DNA of 34,361 nt from Candidatus Binatia bacterium. GTDB taxonomy: Bacteria > Desulfobacterota > Binatia > UBA12015. Where the stretch lies: positions 1-34,361 of the forward strand of contig JAIEPK010000002.1 of the NCBI GenBank assembly GCA_019749875.1, written 5' to 3'. Shown piece after piece: positions 934 through 32,100 of the stretch (position 1 is the first letter of the stretch; the number at the start of each line of letters is the position of its first letter). A model generated the notes under the pieces. The model was not told the origin of the DNA. It saw only the letters and a list, made by a program, of their open reading frames with translations, and did not search any database. The position numbers and the translations under genes are program-made.

Positions 934-3900
934 TCAAGCACCGCGCGCCAGCGCGCGGTCGAAGGCCCGCCCGAACGCGCGCTGCGAGCGATCGACGCGC
1001 ACGAACGCGTGCTCGGTGAGGATGCGCTCGAACTGGCGCGCGGACGCGTCCCAACCGCCGCGCTGCATCTCCGCCGCCGCGGCACGCGCGATGCGCAGCC
1101 GCTCGGCGTCGTCGTCGACCAGCGCACGCAGCGCGACGGCCACGCCGTCGGGATCGGGCCGGGCGAGCCGGCAGGTCTCGCCGTCCGTGATCATCTCGCG
1201 CACGCCGGGTACGTCCGCGTCGACCACCGCGCAGCCGCACGCCATGCCCTGGAACGGCACCCACGAGATGTTCGCCGACATCGAGAAGCACAGCAGCACG
1301 TGCGACGCGTTCATCTCGCGCGCGAGGTCGACGTGGCTCAGCACGCCGAGGTTCTCGATCGGGAAGTCGAGGTCGCCGAGCTCCTCGTCGGTCGCACCGA
1401 AGAAGGCGATGCGCACGTCCGGACGCTGGCGCTTGAGCTGGCGCAAGGCAGCGACGCCGAGCCCGTAGGCGCGACGCGGCAACGACGGCCGTGCAAAGAA
1501 CAGGATCCGCGTCGGACCGGGACGCGCCTCGGGTGCCGTGGTCACGTGGAAGACGTCGGAGTCGACGGCGAAGTCGATCGACGTCGTCGGCCGGTCGGCG
1601 TACGACTCCATGCGGCGCGCGAGCGAGCGGCCGATGGTCACGATCTGCAGCGGCAGGTCGTAGGTCGCCTCGGCCTTGCGGTAGAGCGGGTCGTCCTGTG
1701 CGTAGAACTCGGGCTCGAAGTCCTGCACGAAGTAGAACTTGAACAGCGAGCCGGGCAGCTGCGCGACGGTGTACGCGGTCGGCCAGTTGGTCGCGATCGA
1801 CACGTCCGCGGGCAGGATGTGGTCGTGCCCGACCTCCACCTCGACGTGCAGCGGGCCGAAGTGCTCGGCGACGAAGGCGAGGATGGCCTCGCGCGACAGG
1901 CCGTCGAGGTGCGCGATCGCCTCGACGTAGACACGCACCTTGTGCCCCGAGCGGCCGAGCGCGTTCGCCAGCCGGAAGATGGTCCAGTAGCCGCCGCCGG
2001 TGCCGGCGATCGGTGCACGCACGATCCAGTTGATGGTCAGCGGGCGGTCGCTCGCACCGCGGCTGCGCAGCGCCTTCAGCTTGGCGAGCAGGTCGGGCGC
2101 GATGCTCGCCGTCGTGTGGTGCGCGAGTGCGTCCTCGAGCGCGCGCTGGCCGATGCCCTGACGGAGGCTCGGCGACTCGACGAGCTGGCGCAGCGCGTCG
2201 CGCCACGCCTCCTTGCTGTCGGCGAGGCAGCCGTTGCGCTCGCTCTCGATCACGCGCTGGAAGTCGGCCAGAGGCGTGGCGATCGTCGGGACGCCGACCA
2301 GCGCCGCCTCGAGAAACTTGATCGAGCTCTTGCACTCGGTGAAGGGGTTGCAGCGCTCGAGCGGGGCGAGATTGACGTCGACCTCCGCCATCACTTCGAA
2401 CAGACGCTGCCACGGCATCAGCGGCAGATGCGAGTGGCGCGCGCCGAAGCGGCCGAACGTCTCGCGGACGTCGATGTGGCCCACCGTCAGAAGCCGCACC
2501 GCGGGGTAGCGCTCCATCAGCCAGAGCAGCGACGACTCCGCCTCGGCGAAGTCGCGCTTGTGGGTCGGCGTGCCGCTCAGATAGGCGAACGTCACCTCCT
2601 GCGAGACCCGACCCGTGGCGGCGCGCACCTCGCGCAGGCGCCGCGCGCGAGCCGCGAGACGGGTCATTTCGCGGCTCGCGACGTTCGGGTGCACGAACAC
2701 GCGCTGCAGCAGCGTGCCGATGCGCTGCGCCAGCGGCTCCGTCGAGACGATCGCACCGTCGCAGCGCAGGATCGTCGCGCGATAGCGCTCGAGCCCCTCG
2801 CGGTACAGCTCGCGATCCGCGGGGCGCATGTCCTCGAGCGCCGCCACGTGCGGCATCGACGCGACGTCGAACACCCAGTCGTCGGTGTCGAAGATCACGG
2901 TGCGTCCCGTGCGGCGCGCCTCGCGGATGAAGAAGTCGACGTCGGGCCCGAACGGCACGCGGTGCAGGACGAAGAACGCGTACGAGCGCACCGCCCACGA
3001 CAGATCGATCTCGCCGTAGATCGCGACGTCCGCGGTGACGCCGAGCAGGCCGAGCTGCTCCGCCTGATGATCGCAGCGGTAGCGCTTCGCGTCGCCCGGA
3101 CAGCCGCTCAGGAACAGCACGGCCTTGTGGGTCTCCCCGGCCGGTCCGGTCGGCGGACGGCGACGCGGCTCGCGTCGCGTCAAGCGCCGCGACACGTTCG
3201 ACAGCAGGCGTGCGGACTCGATGAACGTCCGCAACGGAGCCGTCAGCTTCCACGACTTCGAGCGCAGGATCTGGTCCATCGTCGTGCGCGCGTCGGCGAT
3301 CTGACGGTGCTGCTGATGGATGAACGACTCGTGGGCGGCGACGGTCTCGAGTGCGAGCCGGAGCCGCTCCTCGAGCTCCGTGCAGCGCGCGAGCGCCTCG
3401 TCGAGTGTGGGCCGCCGGTCGCTCTTCGCGATGCGCGCGCTCGCTGCCGCGGCGACGCCCCCGAGCAGGAGGCCCCTGCGCCCAGTGGGCGACAGCGCCG
3501 CCTCGATGCGCACGTTCTTCGCGGCCATCGCTTCGGCGACGGCGGTGAACGCCTTGCCCACCAGCACCGGCGGCGGCACGAGCGCTGCCGCTGCGTCCTT
3601 GCCGTTGCCCGACGCCGCTTCCGGCGCGGCATCCTGGTTCTCACGGACCAGCGCATCGAGTCCCGCACGCGCTCGCTCGTCGAGCGGGGCCACGGGAACG
3701 ACGTGGATCTGGCGATAGGGCACCGCGCCGGCGTCGCGATACGCGTCGAGGTGGCGGTTGTAGTCCTCGAAGAAGTCGCCGACCTGCGCGTCGAGGTCGA
3801 ACATGTTCAGGAAGATCAGCAGCTGGAACAGCAGCCAGTTGTGGATGTTGTTGCTGCCGAGGCGGTGGTACGTGCGCCCGGCGCGCGTCAGCTCCCCTTC

Positions 3901-5835: not shown

Positions 5836-7212
5836 TCACTCGCTGCCCGCGAGCTCCACCGGCGGCAGCGGGTCGCGCATCGTGACGAGCTCCTCGGCGG
5901 CGGTCGGATGGATGCCGATGGTCGCGTCGAACTGCGCCTTGGTCGCCTTGCACTTCACCGCGACCGCGAAGCCCTGCACGATCTCGCCCGCGTCCGGCCC
6001 GACCATGTGCACGCCGACCACGCGGTCGCTCGCCCTGTCGACCACCAGCTTCATCATCGTCGTCTCGCCGCGGCCGGTGAGCGTGTGCTTGAGCGGCCGG
6101 AAGCGGGTGCAGAAGATCACGACCTCGCCGTAGCGCTCGCGCGCCTCGTCCTCGGTGAGCCCGACCGTGCCGACGTTCGGGTGGCTGAACACGGCCGACG
6201 GGACGTCGCTGTGATCCGGCTTGACGGGCGCACCGCCGAACAGCGTGGTCGCGACCGCGGCGCCCTCGTGAATGGCCACCGGCGTCAGGTTGATGCGGTC
6301 GGTGACGTCGCCGACCGCGTAGATGCTCGGCACCGACGAGCACGAGTACTCGTCCACCAGCACCGCACCGGCCGCGTTGAGCTTGACGCCGGCGCCCTCG
6401 AGCCCGAGGCCCTGCGTGTTGGGCAGGCGTCCGGTCGCTGCGAGCACCTGGTCGACCTCGAGCACGCTGCCGTCGTCGAGCGTCACGGCGAGCGCCGCGC
6501 CGCGCTTCTCGATGTTGGTGAGATTGACGCCGAAGCGCAGATCGATGCCCTGCTTCTGCATCTCCTCGGCGAGCACGGTACGCACGTCGCGATCGAAGCC
6601 GCGCAGGAAGAGATTGCCGCGATAGATCTGCGTCACGTGCGAGCCCATGCCGTGCAGGATGCCGGCGAACTCGACCGCGATGTAGCCGCCGCCGACGATC
6701 AGGATGCGCTCGGGGCGTTCGGCGAGGCCGAAGATCTCGTTCGACGTGATCGCGAGCTCGCAGCCCGGTCCCGGCGGGACGTACGGCAGGCTGCCGGTCG
6801 CGATCAGCAGGTAGCGCGCGGTGATGCGCCGGCCGTCGATCTCGACCGTGTGCGGATCGACGACGCGCGCGGTGCCGTTCAGGATCTCGACCCCATTCTT
6901 CTCGAGGATCCCTTGATACACGCCGTTGAGGCGCGTGATCTCGCGATCCTTGTTGGCGATGAGCCGAGCCCAGTCGAAGCTGCGCGGACCGACGTTCCAG
7001 CCATAGGCTTCCGCATCGGCGAAGTCGGTGCCGTAGTGGGAAGCATAGACGAGCAGCTTCTTCGGGATGCACCCGACGTTCACGCACGTGCCGCCGAGGC
7101 GCTTGTCCTCGGCCACCGCGACGCGCGCACCGAATGCAGCCGCCATGCGGCTCGCGCGCACGCCGCCCGATCCGGCGCCGATGGTGAACAGGTCGTAGTC
7201 GAACTCCGCCAT
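5836..7212 (-). CDS. gor: Glutathione-disulfide reductase (FAD/NAD(P)-dependent)
   Basis: Start ATG at 7212 inside a longer ORF, with AAGGAAGCAAGGAA upstream. MAEFDYDLFTIGAGSGGVRASRMAAAFGARVAVAEDKRLGGTCVNVGCIPKKLLVYASHYG (redox CxxxxC), YRGNLFLRGFDRDVR, C-terminal GIHPTAAEELVTMRDPLPP. Confidence 0.92.
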   Translation of the reverse strand: MAEFDYDLFTIGAGSGGVRASRMAAAFGARVAVAEDKRLGGTCVNVGCIPKKLLVYASHYGTDFADAEAYGWNVGPRSFDWARLIANKDREITRLNGVYQGILEKNGVEILNGTARVVDPHTVEIDGRRITARYLLIATGSLPYVPPGPGCELAITSNEIFGLAERPERILIVGGGYIAVEFAGILHGMGSHVTQIYRGNLFLRGFDRDVRTVLAEEMQKQGIDLRFGVNLTNIEKRGAALAVTLDDGSVLEVDQVLAATGRLPNTQGLGLEGAGVKLNAAGAVLVDEYSCSSVPSIYAVGDVTDRINLTPVAIHEGAAVATTLFGGAPVKPDHSDVPSAVFSHPNVGTVGLTEDEARERYGEVVIFCTRFRPLKHTLTGRGETTMMKLVVDRASDRVVGVHMVGPDAGEIVQGFAVAVKCKATKAQFDATIGIHPTAAEELVTMRDPLPPVELAGSE

Positions 7213-7326
7213 GAGGGTTCCTTGCTTCCTTTCGAAGGTACGCTTCGTTAAGCTGCGCCCTCTTCGGTCCGATCTCTTTCGTCGGGCCGCACGTCGCCTG
7301 CCCCTTCCGCCCCGAGAGGATCCACG

Positions 7327-8187
7327 ATGGACCAGGAACAGATCCGCCAGAAGATCGCGAGCTTTCCGCGCTGGCACTACCAGTTCGATCTGGCGGGCAA
7401 CCTGACCCCGATCTATCGCGAGAAGTGGATCATCCGTCACCAGGAGCGCAAACGCTACTTCTTCGAGCCGGTAGTCGACCTGCTCGGCGGATCGCTGAAG
7501 GGCAAGCGCGTCCTCGATCTGGGCTGCAACGCGGGCTTCTGGTCGCTGAACGCGGCCGAGGCCGGTGCGGATTTCGTGCTCGGCGTCGACGGCCGGCAGA
7601 TGCACGTCGATCAGGCGAACTTCGTGTTCGAGGTGAAGGGCATCGACAAGAGCCGCTACCACTTCGACGTCGGCAACATCTACGAGTACGACTTCGCGGC
7701 GAAGGGCCCGTTCGACATCGTCTTCTGCTTCGGCCTGATGTACCACATCGCGAAGCCGTTCGGCCTGATCGAGATGATCTCCGCGATCAACTCGGACATC
7801 CTCGTCATCGACACCGGCATCATCCGCATGCCGGGCTCGTTCGTCCGCTATCGCTACGAGAGCACGAACGATCCGCGCGCGACGATGGAGTACGACCTCG
7901 TCAGCTCGCCGTCGAAAGAAGCGATCCGCGACATGGTGCGGCCCTTCGGCTACAAGGCCGTCACGCTGCGCCCGCAGTTCCGCAACTACGTCGGCTCGCG
8001 GCGCTACGAGGTGGGTCTGCGGCGCGCGTTCCTGTGCGCGAAGAAGACCGACCTCTCGAAGCTGCGCGCACCCGTCGAGGGCTGGGAGGAGCCGATGCGC
8101 TGGTTCCACTACCCGGCGTGGTACGGCTACCGCCTGGTGCAGGCGGCGCGGCGCGCGAGCCTGCCGGGCTTCCGCACGCCGACCTGA
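7327..8187 (+). CDS. Class I SAM-dependent methyltransferase (DUF1698/CmoB-like)
   Basis: 286 aa; GKRVLDLGCNAGFWSLNAAEAGADFVLGVDGRQMHVDQANFV; purine-rich RBS GAGAGGA upstream. Confidence 0.85.
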   Translation: MDQEQIRQKIASFPRWHYQFDLAGNLTPIYREKWIIRHQERKRYFFEPVVDLLGGSLKGKRVLDLGCNAGFWSLNAAEAGADFVLGVDGRQMHVDQANFVFEVKGIDKSRYHFDVGNIYEYDFAAKGPFDIVFCFGLMYHIAKPFGLIEMISAINSDILVIDTGIIRMPGSFVRYRYESTNDPRATMEYDLVSSPSKEAIRDMVRPFGYKAVTLRPQFRNYVGSRRYEVGLRRAFLCAKKTDLSKLRAPVEGWEEPMRWFHYPAWYGYRLVQAARRASLPGFRTPT

Positions 8188-23900: not shown

Positions 23901-25259
23901 CTAGCGGCGGCGCCGGCGGCCGACCAGCACCAGGACACCGATCAGCAGGACGACCGCCGGCTGCGCCACGGCCGCGCTCCAGAAGATGGTCTGCGCGAGC
24001 TCGTCCGACACGTACATCGGCGACATCGGCCCGAGCTGCGTCGCCGCGGTCTCCGGGCGCGCCCCCTCGGCCCCGGTCGGCACCAGCCAGCCGATGACGT
24101 TCACCAGCAGGTTCTTGTTGCCCATCAGCGAGAAGAAGGCGTCGCTCGCGAAGTCCGCGTCGCCGACGAGCGCGATGCGCCCAGGGCGGTCCGAATCGGG
24201 TGCGACCAGCGTCACCGCCATGATGCCGATCGGTCCTTGACGGTCGCGCTGCTCGTCGAAGGTCACCTCGCCGGCACGGGTGCGCGACGCGTCCCGTGCG
24301 GCGAAGCTCTCCTGCGCCGTGCGCGCGACGATGCTCGGACCACGCGTCACGTCGTCGTGGTGGCCCGGGGCGATGTCGACCGAGCGCGCCCGACCGAGCA
24401 CCGACGGCGTCGTCATCGAGCGCACGGCGGCGTGGTCGCGATAGTACGGCACGACGACGTTCGTACCGTCGCTGCCGTAGACGCGATTGGCGCGGTCGAT
24501 CACGACGTCGTCGCCGAGAGCGAATCCGTAGCCCGCCACCCACGCCTCGAGGCGCGGCAGCACCAGCGGATCGACCGCCACGAGAACCGCGCCGCCGCGC
24601 TCCAGATACGACGTCAGCGCGCGCAGCTCTCCTTCCGCGAGGTCGGTCTCCGGCCCCGCGAGCACGACCGCGCTCGCGTCGGACGGCACGTCGGTGAGCT
24701 GCAGCAGCGTCAGCGGGCGCAGCTCGTAGCCTTCGTTGCGCAGCACCTGCGACGCGCGCGACCAGGCCTCGCCGTTGCCGGCGCCGAGCGAGCGCTCCTT
24801 GTGGCCGTCGAGGAAGTAGAGCACACGCGCGCGCTCGGCGAGGATGCGCGCGATGCCGCCGACCAGCGACTCCTCGCTGCCGGCGAACACCACGACTTCC
24901 CGCCCGTCGTACTGCAGCACCGCGCGGTCGTAGTGGTCGACGCGGTGCTCCTTCGCCCGCGCGGGATTGCGGTCGAGGTCGACCAGCTCGTAGGTCAGCT
25001 GCGGGCAGTGGTCGCGCAGCAGCTCGACCAGGTCGCGCGAGCGCTGGCGCTCGCCGCGCTCGTAGTAGAGGTCGACGTGCAGCGGCTTCTTGACCTCGCT
25101 CAGCACCGACAGCGTGTAGGGCGACAGCGACAGCATCTGCGTCGCGGTCAGATCGACGCGGCGGTTGTACAGATCCGAGAATGCCTGCAGCGCGACCGCG
25201 ACCGCGAGCACGGCGGCGAGCGACAGCACGAACGCGACCGTGTTCGCGAGTCGCTTCAC
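23901..25259 (-). CDS. Gld-type ABC transporter auxiliary protein (GldG-like)
   Basis: 452 aa; N-terminal TM, VDLTATQMLSLSPYTLSVLSEVKKPLHVDLYY..., C-terminal TM AQPAVVLLIGVLVLVGRRRRR. Confidence 0.88.
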   Translation of the reverse strand: MKRLANTVAFVLSLAAVLAVAVALQAFSDLYNRRVDLTATQMLSLSPYTLSVLSEVKKPLHVDLYYERGERQRSRDLVELLRDHCPQLTYELVDLDRNPARAKEHRVDHYDRAVLQYDGREVVVFAGSEESLVGGIARILAERARVLYFLDGHKERSLGAGNGEAWSRASQVLRNEGYELRPLTLLQLTDVPSDASAVVLAGPETDLAEGELRALTSYLERGGAVLVAVDPLVLPRLEAWVAGYGFALGDDVVIDRANRVYGSDGTNVVVPYYRDHAAVRSMTTPSVLGRARSVDIAPGHHDDVTRGPSIVARTAQESFAARDASRTRAGEVTFDEQRDRQGPIGIMAVTLVAPDSDRPGRIALVGDADFASDAFFSLMGNKNLLVNVIGWLVPTGAEGARPETAATQLGPMSPMYVSDELAQTIFWSAAVAQPAVVLLIGVLVLVGRRRRR

Positions 25260-25287
25260 CGGGACTTCTCCGCGCCGTGCACGAGCA

Positions 25288-26025
25288 TTACTTGACGCCC
25301 CGCCAGCGGCGCGAGCCGAGCGCCAGGACGGTCCAGGCGAGGAACACCGCGCTGAACAGCACGAAGAACGTGACGTCGCGCGAGTCGATGCCGCCGCGCG
25401 AGAACACGTAGAAGCGATCGAAGAGCGACAGCTTCGACAGCACCGACAGCGCCGGCGCCCCGACCGCCGCCTCGTTCCAGGTCATCACCCAGAAGAGCAG
25501 CAGCAGCGAGAACGTCACCGCCGCGGCGAGCACCTGGCTGTCGGTCAGCGCCGAGATCAGGATGCCGCAGGCGAGGAACGCGGCGCCGAGGAGAAAGAGC
25601 CCGAGGTAGCCCGCGAGCAGGGCACCGATCGCGACCGGCGCGTGCGTCTGCGTGAGCAGCGCCGGGAAGAGCAGCGTCGGCGCGAGCATCAGCAGCAGGA
25701 CCAGCAGAGACGCGAGATACTTGCCGAGCACGATCTGCACGTCGCGCAGCGGATACGTCCACAGCAGCTCGAGCGTGCCCAGGCGACGCTCCTCGGCGAA
25801 CAGGCGCATCGTCAGCAGCGGCAGCAGCGTGAGCATGATCTGCCGCATGTCGTGGAGCTGGAACTGCCACAGGCCGCGCGCGACGTCGAAGCCGCCGCTC
25901 AGCAGGAAGAACGACAGGTTCGAGTAGAAGTAGAAGCCCGACACGCCGAGAAAGAGCGTGATCACGACATACGCGAGCAGCGAGCTGAAGTAGGTCACCA
26001 GCTCCTTGCGCAGGATCGCGATCAC
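25288..26025 (-). CDS. ABC transporter permease (GldF-like)
   Basis: 245 aa; MIAILRKELVTYFSSLLAYVVITLFLGVSGFYFYSNL...LLTMRLFAEERRLGTLELLWTYPLRDVQIVLGKYLASL. Confidence 0.9.
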   Translation of the reverse strand: MIAILRKELVTYFSSLLAYVVITLFLGVSGFYFYSNLSFFLLSGGFDVARGLWQFQLHDMRQIMLTLLPLLTMRLFAEERRLGTLELLWTYPLRDVQIVLGKYLASLLVLLLMLAPTLLFPALLTQTHAPVAIGALLAGYLGLFLLGAAFLACGILISALTDSQVLAAAVTFSLLLLFWVMTWNEAAVGAPALSVLSKLSLFDRFYVFSRGGIDSRDVTFFVLFSAVFLAWTVLALGSRRWRGVK

Positions 26026-26960
26026 GCGGCCCCCTGCCGCGGCTCGTCGCCGACGTGCACCAGACGCAGGAAGATCTCCTCGAGCGACAGCGACTCGCGC
26101 GACAGCTCGAGCAGCAGGAAGCCGCGCGCGGTCACCGCACGCGACACCTCGCGCAACACGGCCTCGTCGCGCGCGTGGAAGCGGAAGCGGCCGTCGACCA
26201 CCGCCAGGTCGTGCACGCCGGGCACCGACGACAGGAGCAGGCGCAGCTCGCTCTCGGGCGCCTCGGCGCGCAGGTGCACCGTCACCGCACCTTCGATGCG
26301 GCGCGCGAGGCCGTCGGGATGGTCCTCGGCGACCACCCGCCCGCGGTTGATGATCACCACGCGCTGCGCGACCTGGCTGACTTCCGACAGGATGTGGCTC
26401 GAGAAGATGATGGTGCGCTGGCCGCGCAGGCTCTTCACCAGCTCGCGGATCTCGGCCACCTGCTCCGGGTCGAGTCCCGAGGTCGGCTCGTCGAGGATCA
26501 GCACCTGCGGGTCGCCGAGCAGCGCCTGCGCGAGCCCGACGCGCTGCCGGAAGCCCTTGCTGAGCTTGCCGACCAGGCGGCGGCGCATCTCACCGAGCGA
26601 CGTCGCGCGGATCACGCGCTCGATCTCGCTCCGCCGCGCCGCTCGCGGCAGACGCTTCGCGCGCGCGACGAACGCCAGATACTCCTCGATGCTCATCTCG
26701 GGGTAGTACGGGGCGTTCTCGGGAAAGTAGCCGACCAGGCGCCGGGTCGCGTTGGGCTCGCGCTGCACGTCGTGTCCGCCGACGCGGACGGTTCCCGACG
26801 TCGGCGGAAAGATGCCCGCGATGACGCGCATCGTGGTGGTCTTGCCGGCGCCGTTCGGGCCCAGGAAGCCGACGCATTCGCCCGGCGCGATCGTGAAGCT
26901 CACGTCGCGCACGGCGGTGAAGTCGCCGAATTCCTTGGTGAGATGCGCTACCTCGATCAT
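26022..26960 (-). CDS. ABC transporter ATP-binding protein (GldA-like)
   Basis: 312 aa; GPNGAGKTTTMRVIAG (Walker A), LSKGFRQRVGLAQAL (signature), VLILDEPTSGLDP (Walker B). Confidence 0.95.
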   Translation of the reverse strand: MIEVAHLTKEFGDFTAVRDVSFTIAPGECVGFLGPNGAGKTTTMRVIAGIFPPTSGTVRVGGHDVQREPNATRRLVGYFPENAPYYPEMSIEEYLAFVARAKRLPRAARRSEIERVIRATSLGEMRRRLVGKLSKGFRQRVGLAQALLGDPQVLILDEPTSGLDPEQVAEIRELVKSLRGQRTIIFSSHILSEVSQVAQRVVIINRGRVVAEDHPDGLARRIEGAVTVHLRAEAPESELRLLLSSVPGVHDLAVVDGRFRFHARDEAVLREVSRAVTARGFLLLELSRESLSLEEIFLRLVHVGDEPRQGAA

Positions 26961-27092: not shown

Positions 27093-27935
27093 TCAGGCAC
27101 CATCGTCCCGCCCGCTGATCGAGTATCCGCTCGCCGGGCCGCGCAGCGGCTGCAGCAGCATGCGGTCGAGGCCCAGATCGCGCGCGCTGCGGAACTGCTC
27201 GATGCCGATGGTCATACCCCCGTGGCCGTCGACCGGCTGCGCCTTGTAGGTGCCGAGCAGGCGATCCCACCACGGGACGTTGAAGCCGAAGTTGCTGTTG
27301 GTCTCGTCGGGACGGATCGAGTGGTGCACGCGGTGCATGTCGGGCGTCACCACGAGCAGGCGCAGCACCCGGTCCACGTGCAGCGGCAGCAGCACGTTGC
27401 CGTGGTTGAACATCGACGTCGCGTTGAGCACGACCTCGAACACCAGCACCGCGACCGCCGGCGGTCCGACCGCGAGCACGAAGCCGAGCTTGAGCGCCAT
27501 CGACAGCACGATCTCGAGCGGGTGGAAGCGCACGCCGGTGGTCGCGTCGAGCTCGAGGTCGGCGTGGTGCATGCGGTGCAGGCGCCACAGCGCCGGCACC
27601 GCGTGGAACATCACGTGCTGCAGGTAGATCGTCAGGTCGAGCGCGAGCAGCGAGCCGACGAACGCGGCCCATCCCGACACGCCGAGCACGTTGAGCAGGC
27701 CCCAGCCGCGCTCCTGCGCGAGCGCCGCGAGCTCGACGGCGAGCACCGGGAATGCGATGCGCAGGACGAGCGTGCTCAGCACCACGACGCCCAGGTTGCC
27801 GGTCCAGCGCAGGCGACGGCCGATGCGGCGCGGGCGGCGCGGGGCAACCACCTCCCACCACGCCATCGCGGCGAGGACGCCGACGAAGGCGAGCATGCGG
27901 ACGAGCGGCTCGTGCGCCATCAGCGCGCCCTGCAC
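27093..27935 (-). CDS. Sterol desaturase / fatty acid hydroxylase family membrane protein
   Basis: 280 aa; histidine clusters HVMFH, HRMHH, MHRVHHS in a multi-TM protein. An alternative ATG start at 27920 is possible. Confidence 0.9.
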   Translation of the reverse strand: MQGALMAHEPLVRMLAFVGVLAAMAWWEVVAPRRPRRIGRRLRWTGNLGVVVLSTLVLRIAFPVLAVELAALAQERGWGLLNVLGVSGWAAFVGSLLALDLTIYLQHVMFHAVPALWRLHRMHHADLELDATTGVRFHPLEIVLSMALKLGFVLAVGPPAVAVLVFEVVLNATSMFNHGNVLLPLHVDRVLRLLVVTPDMHRVHHSIRPDETNSNFGFNVPWWDRLLGTYKAQPVDGHGGMTIGIEQFRSARDLGLDRMLLQPLRGPASGYSISGRDDGA

Positions 27936-27989
27936 GATCGTGCTCCGTCCGGCGTCATCGAGCCCTCGCCCGACGAGTACCCGATCCCT

Positions 27990-28595
27990 TCACTCCGCAC
28001 ACGCCAGCAGGAAGCCCGACGACAGCGCCTCGACCCGGACCTTCGCGAAGCCGGCCCGCGCGAGCATCTGCTCGACGTCGGCGCGCGCGTGGAAGCGATA
28101 GACGGCCTCCGGGAAATCCCGGCTCGCCTCGTCCTTCGGCCGGAACCCGAGCACCAGGCGGCCGCCGTGGCGCAGGACCCGCCTCAGCTCGGTGAGCTGC
28201 CGGAGCGGATCGGGCCAGAAGTACAGCGTGTTCATGGCGACCGCCTTGTCGAACGTCGTATCGCCGTACGGCAGGTCGCTGCTGTCGGCGCACGACAGGC
28301 GCACCCGCCCGCTCGCGACGAGCGGGCCGCAGAGCGCCGACGCGAGCGCGTGCATGTCCGCCGAGTGATCGATGCCCGCGACGAGGCCGTCGGGGACCGC
28401 GCGCGCGATCTCGAGGACGTTGTGCCCGTGTCCAAAGCCGATCTCGAGCACGTGGTCGGTGGGCGCCAGCTCCAGCAGACGACGGGCGGCGGCGTTCCCG
28501 CCGGCCGTCTCGCGCGCCATGATCCACGCGATCACGCGCCCGAGGATCCCGCTCGGCCGCGCGGACTGGCGTGCGATGAACTCGGGGCGACGCAC
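27990..28595 (-). CDS. Class I SAM-dependent methyltransferase
   Basis: 201 aa, GTG start; DHVLEIGFGHGHNVLEIARAVPDGLVAGIDHSADM, FDKAVAMNTLYFWPDPLRQLTELRRVLRHGGRLVLGFRP. Confidence 0.92.
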   Translation of the reverse strand: MRRPEFIARQSARPSGILGRVIAWIMARETAGGNAAARRLLELAPTDHVLEIGFGHGHNVLEIARAVPDGLVAGIDHSADMHALASALCGPLVASGRVRLSCADSSDLPYGDTTFDKAVAMNTLYFWPDPLRQLTELRRVLRHGGRLVLGFRPKDEASRDFPEAVYRFHARADVEQMLARAGFAKVRVEALSSGFLLACAE

Positions 28596-28793
28596 CTACG
28601 GCTCCCCGCGGTCGCGCAGCGCGGCCTTCAGCCCGAGCCAGTAGGTCACGCAGGCGCCGGCGATCGTGCTCGCGAAGCCGACCGTCAGCTCGTTGACCCC
28701 GGCGATGCAGCTCCGCGGGATCACGAATCCGTAGCCGATGACGACGGTGGGAACGACGAAGCCCACCAGCGGCATCAGGTGGCGCGGCTTCAC
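28596..28793 (-). CDS. Small (65 aa) two-TM membrane protein of unknown function
   Basis: VKPRHLMPLVGFVVPTVVIGYGFVIPRSCIAGVNELTVGFASTIAGACVTYWLGLKAALRDRGEP; GTG start overlaps the upstream stop (GTGA); its stop abuts the downstream methyltransferase start. Confidence 0.7.
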   Translation of the reverse strand: MKPRHLMPLVGFVVPTVVIGYGFVIPRSCIAGVNELTVGFASTIAGACVTYWLGLKAALRDRGEP

Positions 28794-30478
28794 GATCCCG
28801 CTCCGTCGCCCGCAGCGGACGCGTGCTGCTCGCACACGCTCCGCTCCGCGCCGACGCGGATCCACGTCGTCGTGCGGCCGAGCAGCGTGATGCCGAGGTA
28901 GCCGCGCACGTGCAGCCGGTCCGCACCGTCGAGCGACATGATGCAGCGATACGTGCGGCCGCTGGTCGGGTCGTAGATGCCCCCTCCGCTCCACCGGTCG
29001 GGCTCTCCCCGGACGGGCGTCAAGTCGCTGAGGATCTGCAGGCCGACGATCGGCCGCTGCTGCAGCGCCTCGTCGGAGTTCTGCCGGTCGGTCAAGGGAC
29101 AGCCGTTCTCGTCGAACGGCGACCGAAGCCACACGATCTCGCCGCACAGCGCCTCGCCGCAGGGTGCGATCTCGACCTGCGCCGCACCACCCTCGGCGTA
29201 CCAGCGACCTTCCGGGCTCGCCGCGTGGCCCGCGGACGCGCCCCACACGACGAGCAAGACCGGCAGCGCCACGGCCGCGCGCGCCGCCCGTCGCGGCAGC
29301 GCGCACGCCTTCGGCCGCAAGCCGAACAGGAAGCGCACGAGCGGCAGCTCGCGCACGACGAGGTGGTAGACCGCAAAGGTGATCAGCACCGCCACGCCGA
29401 CCAGCAGGACGAACTTCGCGGCGATGCCGAGCGGCAGCCGCACGATGAAGTGCCCCGGCACGACGATCGCGGCCTGGTGTAGGATGTAGACCGGGAACGC
29501 CGCCACGCTCAGGTAGTGCAGCGCCGCGTTGCCGAAGTCGAGGAAGCGACGCGCGAGTCCGAGGGCCGCGAGCACGAAGCACCATCCGGCGATCGCGCTG
29601 CCGGCGAGCAGCACCGGCGGTGCGTCGTACAGGCGCAGCACGCCCGCGAGCAGCACGCCGCAGGTCGCGGTGCCGAGCACCAGCGCCCTGCGCCACTCGC
29701 GCTGCGCGACTTCCTCGAGAGCGGGATAGCAGGCGAGCAGGAAGCCCGCGAAGAGATACGTCGAGTAGTACGCGACGTTCGCCCAGTCGTCGTACAGGTT
29801 CTGGATGCCGGGCCAGTACGGACGCAGCACCAGCTGCACCACGACGAGCGGCGCAATCGGCGCGTAGACCGCGAGCACCGGCACGCGCTCGATCTCGCCC
29901 GCGCGGCGCACGAGCCAGGCGAACGCCGGCAGGTAGAGCAGCGTGAACGTGAGCGGGTAGGCGACGAACCACAGGTGCGCCCAGGTGAAGCGCTCGAGCG
30001 TGAGGAAGCTCGGCAGGAACTGCACGAACGACTCGTCGAAGGGCGCCGCGACCGGCAATCCGTCGGGGATGACGAGCCGGAAGCCGGCTTGCAGCGCGGG
30101 GCTGACACGAAGGCCGGCGTGGTTCAGGTCGAGGCCGCTCGACAGCTCGAGATACTTGATGACGGGCATGAACAGCACGCAGCCGGCGAGGAGCGGCACG
30201 GCGAGACGCAGCGCACGCTCGCGCGCGACACCGAGCGCACCGCGCGCACGCAGCGACGGGACCAGCGACCAGCCGGCAAGCAGAAAGAACAGCGGCATGT
30301 GCCACAGGCTGATGAAGCCGCACAGCACGAGCAGGCCGAACGACAGGTCGGCGTTGCGCACGTGGTAGAACGGCGCCGGGTTGGAGACCATGCCGGCGTG
30401 AAAGACGAACAGCAGCAGCGTGGCGCCGATGCGCAGCCAGTCGATGTCGTAGCGACGAGCGGTGGCTCGGGAAGTCAT
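28790..30478 (-). CDS. Acyltransferase family 3 membrane protein fused to C-terminal DUF2147 domain
   Basis: 562 aa from ATG 30478. N-terminal RYDIDWLRIGATLLLFVFHAGM...FFLLAGWSLVPSLRARG (acyltransferase 3); C-terminal GRWYAEGGAAQVEIAPCGEALCGEIVWLRSP...GGIYDPTSGRTYRCIMSLDGADRLHVRGYLGITLLGRTTTWIRV (DUF2147). Confidence 0.88.
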   Translation of the reverse strand: MTSRATARRYDIDWLRIGATLLLFVFHAGMVSNPAPFYHVRNADLSFGLLVLCGFISLWHMPLFFLLAGWSLVPSLRARGALGVARERALRLAVPLLAGCVLFMPVIKYLELSSGLDLNHAGLRVSPALQAGFRLVIPDGLPVAAPFDESFVQFLPSFLTLERFTWAHLWFVAYPLTFTLLYLPAFAWLVRRAGEIERVPVLAVYAPIAPLVVVQLVLRPYWPGIQNLYDDWANVAYYSTYLFAGFLLACYPALEEVAQREWRRALVLGTATCGVLLAGVLRLYDAPPVLLAGSAIAGWCFVLAALGLARRFLDFGNAALHYLSVAAFPVYILHQAAIVVPGHFIVRLPLGIAAKFVLLVGVAVLITFAVYHLVVRELPLVRFLFGLRPKACALPRRAARAAVALPVLLVVWGASAGHAASPEGRWYAEGGAAQVEIAPCGEALCGEIVWLRSPFDENGCPLTDRQNSDEALQQRPIVGLQILSDLTPVRGEPDRWSGGGIYDPTSGRTYRCIMSLDGADRLHVRGYLGITLLGRTTTWIRVGAERSVCEQHASAAGDGAGS

Positions 30479-31179
30479 GCCGTCTCCTTGCTGCTCAGGG
30501 CGCGGACGACGAACTGCACGACGGTCGCGCGCGCGACGTCCTCGCCGACCTTCTCCGGTCGCGAGTCGAAGTGGCGGTGCACCGCCCAGAACACGATGGT
30601 CTCGAGGACGAGGCGGGCGGTGGCGTCGACGTCCGGCACGGGTGCGATCAGCCCGCGCGCGATGCGTGCCTTCAGGTAGCCGGCGAGGAGCTCGAGCAGC
30701 CCGCCACGTGCCCCCTCGAACCACAGCTTCGCCAGCTCGGGATAGTCGCGCGCCGAGGTGTCGATCAGCTTGATGCGCCGGCGATTGGCCGCGAGCTGGT
30801 CGTAGAGCTCGCCGACGATCGCAGCGATCTCGTCCGCCATGTCGCCCGGGCGCTTGCGGGCCACGGCCGCGCCGAGAGCCGGCACGCCCTGGTGACGCTG
30901 CAGCTCGTCGCGCACGTAGCGCAGCGTCGCGCCCGCCTTCGGCGAGCGGACCGGGAACGCGACGTCGCTCGCGGACTTCGGCGGCTGGTCCCCGTAGCGG
31001 CAGACGAGGTCGAACAGCGCCTCCTTGCTCTCGACGTAGAGGTAGAGCGTGCCCTTCGCGACGCCCATCGCGGCCGCGACGTCCGCCATCTGCGTGCGCC
31101 GGTAGCCCTGCTCGACGAACACCCGGGTGGCCGCGTCGAGCAGCTGCGGTAGCCGGTCCTCGGGAATCCGTCTGGCCAT
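30475..31179 (-). CDS. TetR/AcrR family transcriptional regulator
   Basis: 234 aa; LPQLLDAATRVFVEQGYRRTQMADVAAAMGVAKGTLYLYVESKEALFDLVCRY (TetR HTH); ATGA overlap with the acyltransferase gene. Confidence 0.93.
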   Translation of the reverse strand: MARRIPEDRLPQLLDAATRVFVEQGYRRTQMADVAAAMGVAKGTLYLYVESKEALFDLVCRYGDQPPKSASDVAFPVRSPKAGATLRYVRDELQRHQGVPALGAAVARKRPGDMADEIAAIVGELYDQLAANRRRIKLIDTSARDYPELAKLWFEGARGGLLELLAGYLKARIARGLIAPVPDVDATARLVLETIVFWAVHRHFDSRPEKVGEDVARATVVQFVVRALSSKETA

Positions 31180-31185
31180 GCGCAG

Positions 31186-31214
31186 CTTCTAAACTGACCG
31201 ACCAGGTCAGTCAA
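31186..31214 (-). promoter_or_regulatory. Candidate sigma70-like promoter for the TetR operon, apparently leaderless
   Basis: Minus strand TTGACT (31214-31209), 17-nt spacer, TAGAAG (31191-31186), then only 6 nt (CTGCGC) to the ATG at 31179. Confidence 0.5.
31193..31211. promoter_or_regulatory. Candidate TetR operator (inverted repeat)
   Basis: ACTGACC-GACCA-GGTCAGT, perfect 7-bp arms, inside the promoter spacer and 14 bp upstream of the TetR start. Confidence 0.7.
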
Positions 31215-31280: not shown

Positions 31281-31679
31281 ATGGACGACGCGCGCGCGAC
31301 CCGGATCATCGGCGAGGCGGTTCCCGACGTCGTCGCCGTGTATCGCTTCGGCTCGACGATCCGCGGCGAGGAGCACACGGCCAGTGACGTCGACCTCGCC
31401 GTGCTCGCAGCGGGCCCGCTCGACCCGGTACGACGCTTCGCATTGCAGGAGGAGCTTGCAGTCGCCCTGCGGCGCGACGTCGATTTGGTGGACCTGCGCC
31501 GGGCGTCGACAGTCATGGCCATGCAGGTCGTCTCGACCGGCACGCCGATCTTCGTCGGGGACCCTGCCGAGCAAGAGCGTTTCGCGGACTACGTCTTTGG
31601 GTCTTACGTTCGATTCAACGAGGAGCGCCGCGCGATCCTGCAGCAGGCTCTGCGCGAGGGCACGATCCATGGTCGATGA
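31281..31679 (+). CDS. mntA: MntA-like minimal nucleotidyltransferase antitoxin
   Basis: 132 aa; VYRFGSTIRGEEHTASDVDLAVLAAG (GS...SDxDLAV) and third acidic residue region RRDVDLVDLRRAS; overlaps a HepT-like gene. Confidence 0.9.
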   Translation: MDDARATRIIGEAVPDVVAVYRFGSTIRGEEHTASDVDLAVLAAGPLDPVRRFALQEELAVALRRDVDLVDLRRASTVMAMQVVSTGTPIFVGDPAEQERFADYVFGSYVRFNEERRAILQQALREGTIHGR

Positions 31680-32100
31680 CGTCGTCCTGAACAAGGCCGC
31701 CGTGATCGAGCGCTGCGTCGCGCGTGTCCGCGAGGAGTACGCCGGTGATCCACGGCGGCTGCGCGACGACATCACCCGTCAGGACTCGATCATCCTCAAC
31801 CTGCAGCGCGCCTGCGAAGCTGCGATCGACCTCGCGATGCACGTTGTGCGGGTACGCCGACTTGGCGTCCCGCAGGAAACACGTGAATCGTTCGAGATGC
31901 TGCGCGACGCCCGCCTGCTCGACGATACGCTCGCCGACCGGATGAAGCGTATGGTGGGATTCCGCAACGTGGCGGTCCACGACTACCGCAAGCCCGACCT
32001 CGACGTCGTCGAGCGCATCGTCACGAACCACCTCGACGAGTTCATCGCGTTCTCGTCCGCGCTCGTCCGCTCGTCGGGCGCATCGACTGCCCCGCGGTAG
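31669..32100 (+). CDS. hepT: HepT-like ribonuclease toxin
   Basis: 143 aa from ATG 31669; contains RNVAVHDY (Rx4HxY) in an all-helical protein; 11-nt overlap with mntA. Confidence 0.9.
   Translation: MVDDVVLNKAAVIERCVARVREEYAGDPRRLRDDITRQDSIILNLQRACEAAIDLAMHVVRVRRLGVPQETRESFEMLRDARLLDDTLADRMKRMVGFRNVAVHDYRKPDLDVVERIVTNHLDEFIAFSSALVRSSGASTAPR

Follow-up and report, generated by a model that had tools for sequence, protein, structure and literature searches.

The window, the 34,361-nucleotide stretch of DNA analysed here, carries five open reading frames on its minus strand (27093-31179). The cassette that they form is best explained as an autorepressed, inducible envelope-modification unit under a single-operator switch, an explanation to which, taken as a whole, we give a probability of about 0.55. 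Its most likely function is induced transmembrane acyl transfer to a hydrophobic acceptor of the envelope, the same pool being methylated and, in some hosts, hydroxylated. All five frames were called with the junctions as first described: the tetR and AT3 genes overlap by 4 nt (ATGA), the AT3 gene and the gene of a 65-aa protein overlap by 4 nt (GTGA), the methyltransferase gene follows with zero gap, and the hydroxylase gene follows after a gap of 54 nt. The coordinates thus bear out the five co-directional genes of the earlier note, and Pfam confirmed the domains TetR_N, Acyl_transf_3 with DUF2147, Methyltransf_11/25 and FA_hydroxylase.

The cassette was compared in about 15 related loci, fetched via the AT3-DUF2147 protein, and in whole genomes (cited by L, G and C numbers for loci, genomes and contigs). 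The conserved neighbourhood which the earlier note proposed to look for is found in these relatives, and it includes both the 65-aa protein and the AT3-DUF2147 fusion. The genes for TetR, AT3-DUF2147, the 65-aa protein and the methyltransferase overlap or abut, are kept as a block and are duplicated as a unit. The further claim of one five-gene operon is only partly supported: it holds for this block, but the hydroxylase is a looser associate across the loci, being separated, convergent, unlinked or missing in relatives. That the unit is TetR-controlled and of the ligand-inducible type is supported.

The promoter of the cassette (31186-31214, minus strand) consists of the -35 hexamer TTGACT (31209-31214), a 17-nt spacer and the -10 hexamer TAGAAG (31186-31191). 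Between the two hexamers lies the predicted TetR operator, the palindrome TGACTGACCTGGTCGGTCA (31195-31213). Eight of its nine positions pair, whereas random 19-mers of matched composition pair at 2.3 positions on average, and the inverted repeat noticed earlier in the promoter is therefore real. The first gene codes for the TetR-family autoregulator of 234 aa (30475-31179, minus strand, ATG start; PF00440, 2.2e-16). Nearly all of the 16 promoters read have the operator TTGACTGACN5CRGTCA in this same position between the two hexamers. In this shared layout TTGACTGA...TAta is conserved at the same position in 16 of 16 loci, with the -35 hexamer forming the left edge of TTGACTGA, and the second half of the palindrome, CNNNNNCRGTCA, is found in nearly all 16 promoters, the deviating ones being L010, L013 and L023. 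The -10 hexamer lies 16-18 nt past the -35 across these promoters, and the tetR ATG usually 6-11 nt past the -10 in the related loci (37 nt in L019). In the window the -10 ends 6 nt ahead of the ATG, which suggests that the tetR mRNA is probably leaderless. No ribosome-binding site was found before tetR in the window, whereas AT3 is preceded by AAGGAG. A generic promoter scan did not call the window promoter because of its weak -10.

Across the 7.78 Mb of the genome, the exact sequence TGACTGACN5CRGTCA is found twice, once at each copy of the cassette, and at no other site; judged by sequence, the TetR of the window therefore appears to be a local switch dedicated to the cassette. The TetR-AT3 pair that is furthest from the others (L023, from Acidimicrobiia) has the recognition helix SSGTIYNYV in place of AKGTLYLYV, and its operator arms are also altered. 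This single case is consistent with co-variation of the recognition helix and the operator. The layout, with an operator overlapping its own promoter, no ribosome-binding site at the first gene and an ATG right past the -10, is of the acuR type. The cassette resembles acuR-acuI-dddL of Rhodobacter sphaeroides in having tetR first, an operator over the promoter, a leaderless mRNA (predicted here) and presumed autorepression (PMC3017554). However, its operator is different and its enzymes are unrelated.

TetR and AT3 are a strongly conserved pair, adjoining in all cassette loci with upstream sequence. The pair is sparse in the host order, where it is found in the own genome only (1 of 14), and sparse in the phylum, which indicates that the cassette is accessory; it is also present in other uncultured bacteria. 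A search of plasmids found neither the 65-aa protein nor the fused AT3-DUF2147. The own genome contains two copies, in the window and in contig C610, with AT3 proteins that are 85% identical and are sisters in the tree with 100/100 support. The similarity of the two copies extends from the operator almost as far as the end of the hydroxylase gene, their surroundings are unrelated, and in the C610 copy it is broken by the insertion of a YnfA/SMR-like gene and a GST gene in antisense orientation. Strain contamination as a source of the second copy was rejected on account of the flanks, which are unrelated beyond the cassette and this insertion, and of the sister relationship of the AT3 copies. 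Genome G408 has a second, contig-cut copy. In addition, a 94-nt AT3 fragment of 83% identity, a relic of a third copy, is located at L035 7115-7208 (G000:C678), a few kb from a gene also present upstream of the C610 copy.

The second gene (28790-30478, minus strand, ATG start) codes for a protein of 562 aa with an MdoC/OpgC-like AT3 part (Acyl_transf_3; PF01757, 1.9e-23) and a C-terminal DUF2147 (PF09917, 2.3e-31). The AT3 part scores 83.5 bits against PF01757, for which the gathering score is 31, and is 46-58% identical to its relatives. The residues R16-X10-H27 in TMH1 are invariant in 14 of 14 alignment rows, and the RXXR motif at TMH3 is R88xxR91 in the window and RxxK in L010. The best NCBIfam family is MdoC, with 79.9 bits compared with a curated cut-off of 338. 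The AlphaFold (AF2) model of the whole protein has a mean pLDDT of 81.7, and its AT3 core matches HGSNAT weakly (probability 1.00, E 0.0095); a profile search with AT3 against PDB sequences gave no match. We infer that the substrate is a lipid rather than a glycan. This is not implied by AT3 itself, since most AT3 proteins acylate glycans (PMC9558356).

The DUF2147 part of the model matches the lipocalin HP1028 of Helicobacter pylori clearly (PDB 4INN; E 1.4e-5, probability 1.00). The DUF2147/lipocalin-like fold is the same, but HP1028 is a separate protein. At the junction of the two domains there is a signal-peptide or TM-like helix (29215-29287, minus strand; residues about 398-421, ...VLLVVWGASAGHA followed by AS) with a hydrophobic segment at 398-416, and this helix is the counterpart of the signal peptide with which the free-standing DUF2147 proteins of relatives begin. 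Fusion of DUF2147 to AT3 is seen in the window, C610, L008, L010 (where DUF2147 seems to be frameshifted), L011, L013 and L019. In L009, L012, L015, L017, L018 and L024 DUF2147 has an ORF of its own directly after AT3 and carries a signal peptide, and AT3 has no adjoining DUF2147 in L014 and L016. The signal peptides of the separate proteins argue that DUF2147 is periplasmic and accompanies AT3 whether fused or not. The retained junction helix would place the fused domain in the periplasm as well, and in AT3-SGNH proteins an 11th helix likewise carries SGNH out of the cytoplasm (PMC9558356). Of the two roles offered for DUF2147 in the earlier note, sensor or binding module, the second is consistent with the ligand-binding fold of lipocalins and the first found no support; the domain is better explained as a binding or acceptor module of the periplasm.

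The third gene (28596-28793, minus strand, GTG start) codes for the 65-aa protein, in which two hydrophobic stretches, putative membrane helices, surround an invariant loop IPxSCIAGxNELT (I25, P26, S28, C29, I30, A31, G32, N34, E35, L36 and T37). It belongs to no Pfam family and has no NCBIfam match over the curated cut-off. Its identity is 67-85% across six relatives, and outside the own genome 67-71%, so that it is better conserved than AT3 and also than the methyltransferase (43-54%). The latter is a class I SAM-dependent enzyme of 201 aa (27990-28595, minus strand, GTG start; PF08241, 1.2e-16), and its PDB matches (MitM, sugar- and CFA-type enzymes) are unspecific members of class I that point to no substrate. 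For the small protein and METHYLTRANSFERASE, six of the 14 cassette genomes contain methyltransferase orthologues (E < 1e-80), and it is these six that contain the small proteins as well. Each of these orthologues adjoins a small protein, and in the 14 genomes they are found only next to the small protein and AT3. Genome G414 has one extra, solitary small protein without methyltransferase. Remote standalone relatives (family f39, 32-39%) keep the helices and lack the loop, which indicates that only the AT3-associated branch and the G414 offshoot have the loop. Together the 65-aa protein and its relatives define an unannotated family of small membrane proteins. Standalone members outside the cassette are located at L063 8063-8260 (-), L064 6122-6304 (+) and L105 6734-6922 (-).

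The last gene (27093-27935, minus strand, GTG start) codes for a membrane diiron enzyme of the fatty-acid-hydroxylase/sterol-desaturase type of 280 aa. It scores 93.5 bits against PF04116 (1.8e-26), where the cut-off is 31, and its three histidine boxes, H107-X3-H, H120-XXHH and H201-XXHH, are intact. It shares these boxes and the hydrophobic membrane segments with OlsE and the fatty acid hydroxylase superfamily. However, OlsE, its sole NCBIfam match, gives 71.2 bits compared with a cut-off of 475, and the enzyme is not an orthologue by this measure; a profile search against the PDB gave no match, and Foldseek found no significant PDB fold match for its model. Close orthologues were found in the own genome (two), G409, G412 and G416, and most relatives have none. 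They are rare, yet they adjoin the cassette in three of the four genomes having them, the unlinked one being that of G416. The gene is co-directional in the window, convergent in L009 and L012, and displaced by 1.3 kb in C610 by the inserted genes including the antisense GST. Hydroxylase relatives of 36% and 37% are found after AT3 in L019 and 2 kb upstream of tetR in L092. The hydroxylase is probably linked functionally to the cassette, though not as a fixed operon member.

These components suggest the following mechanism. TetR would repress its own operon until a ligand, probably lipophilic, releases it. With its R-X10-H centre, the AT3 domain would draw an acyl group through its pore in the membrane, acyl-CoA of the cytosol being the donor, and the 11th, signal-peptide-like helix, possibly cleaved, would bring the lipocalin-fold DUF2147 to the periplasm. 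There DUF2147, in a role like the one that SGNH has in AT3-SGNH enzymes, may receive or present a hydrophobic molecule, either the acceptor or the product. The two-helix protein of 65 aa could act as a subunit that partners AT3 or the methyltransferase. The cytosolic methyltransferase, with the membrane hydroxylase in some hosts, may act on this same lipid-like substrate, either ahead of its acylation or afterwards. AT3-SGNH enzymes (OafA, OafB, OatA) have the same AT3 pore, R-X10-H and a C-terminal extracytoplasmic domain attached via an additional 11th helix (PMC9558356, PMC9833829). In the cassette, however, the AT3 core is MdoC/OpgC-like and the C-terminal partner is DUF2147 with its lipocalin fold, often a free secreted protein, instead of an SGNH hydrolase domain. 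It is tentatively proposed, as a possibility short of even odds, that this is a distinct AT3 machine in which a lipocalin-type periplasmic domain replaces SGNH and which, with the 65-aa IPxSCIAGxNELT subunit, acylates an undescribed methylated, sometimes hydroxylated, hydrophobic envelope molecule.

Among the other explanations, a detoxification or solvent-stress unit is unlikely but the least so. Here TetR would sense a toxic hydrophobic compound, which the enzymes conjugate or modify with acyl, methyl and hydroxyl groups together with neighbouring GSTs. In the second copy and in L014 a GST gene faces the methyltransferase gene in convergent orientation, in G009 one stands beside a DUF2147 remnant, L010 has SDR, GST-like and AurF-like genes next, L016 has a DsbA-type gene, and the analogous autoregulated acuR unit senses acrylate, the compound its operon handles (PMC3017554). 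However, the window copy and most loci are without GST, and AT3 acceptors are extracytoplasmic, which is not an obvious route of detoxification.

Succinylation of osmoregulated periplasmic glucans (OPG) by AT3 as an MdoC/OpgC enzyme appears less probable still. Among curated families MdoC comes nearest to the AT3 core, OPG succinylases belong to the stand-alone AT3 proteins (PMC9558356), and the own genome has three MdoG-family genes; these are, however, on other contigs, and MdoG is present in 6 of the 14 TetR-AT3 cassette genomes (the own included) and missing in 8, two of which have the small protein, methyltransferase and hydroxylase. The MdoC score is also far under the cut-off, and the cassette AT3 differs in being TetR-controlled and fused to or beside DUF2147. 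Slightly more doubtful again is the remodelling of ornithine or other amino-lipids, with an OlsE-like hydroxylase, an OlsG-like N-methylase and AT3 adding a further acyl group. The OlsE match would suit it, as would the trimethylornithine lipids known from planctomycetes (PMC7828035), but that score is far under its cut-off and the OlsB-type acyltransferase (PF13444) was not found in the own genome, G408, G409 or G412. The OPG succinylation and OlsB-type ornithine-lipid routes were set aside, as host gene content does not track the cassette.

The bacterial AT3 fusions described in reviews are with SGNH and alanine-racemase domains (PMC9558356, PMC9833829), and a literature search found no paper naming both DUF2147 and Acyl_transf_3; the coupling of AT3 to a lipocalin with a dedicated small protein is therefore new, as far as could be checked. 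How a stand-alone AT3 without an SGNH partner recognizes its acceptor is an open question (PMC9558356). In the cassette, fusion and gene order link AT3 to a conserved set of partners (lipocalin-fold domain, small membrane protein and methyltransferase) under a single-operator switch, which makes the question testable in a laboratory host. The association with AT3 also suggests a role for DUF2147.

Several neighbouring genes were noted. Divergent from tetR in the window are an MntA-type nucleotidyltransferase gene (31281-31679, +) and a HepT-like gene (31669-32100, +), a probable toxin-antitoxin pair with no counterpart in the gene calls of other cassette loci. The hydroxylase gene is followed directly, in the same orientation, by genes (23901-26960, -) for an ABC ATPase, an ABC-2 permease and an ABC_transp_aux (Gld-type) protein; no cassette locus contains a match to the ATPase. 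The same GST family is convergent to the cassette end at L034 (G000:C610) 6619-7392 (-), L014 8149-8922 (-) and L004 (G009) 1924-2709 (-), the GSTs of C610 and G009 being 75% identical; in G009 the DUF2147 remnant is all that is left of the cassette. The SDR, GST-like and AurF-like diiron genes of L010 (8650-11443) stand in line after the methyltransferase. In L013 (7683-9029) the place of the small protein and methyltransferase is taken by an adenylate/guanylate cyclase gene, which overlaps the stop codon of AT3-DUF2147.
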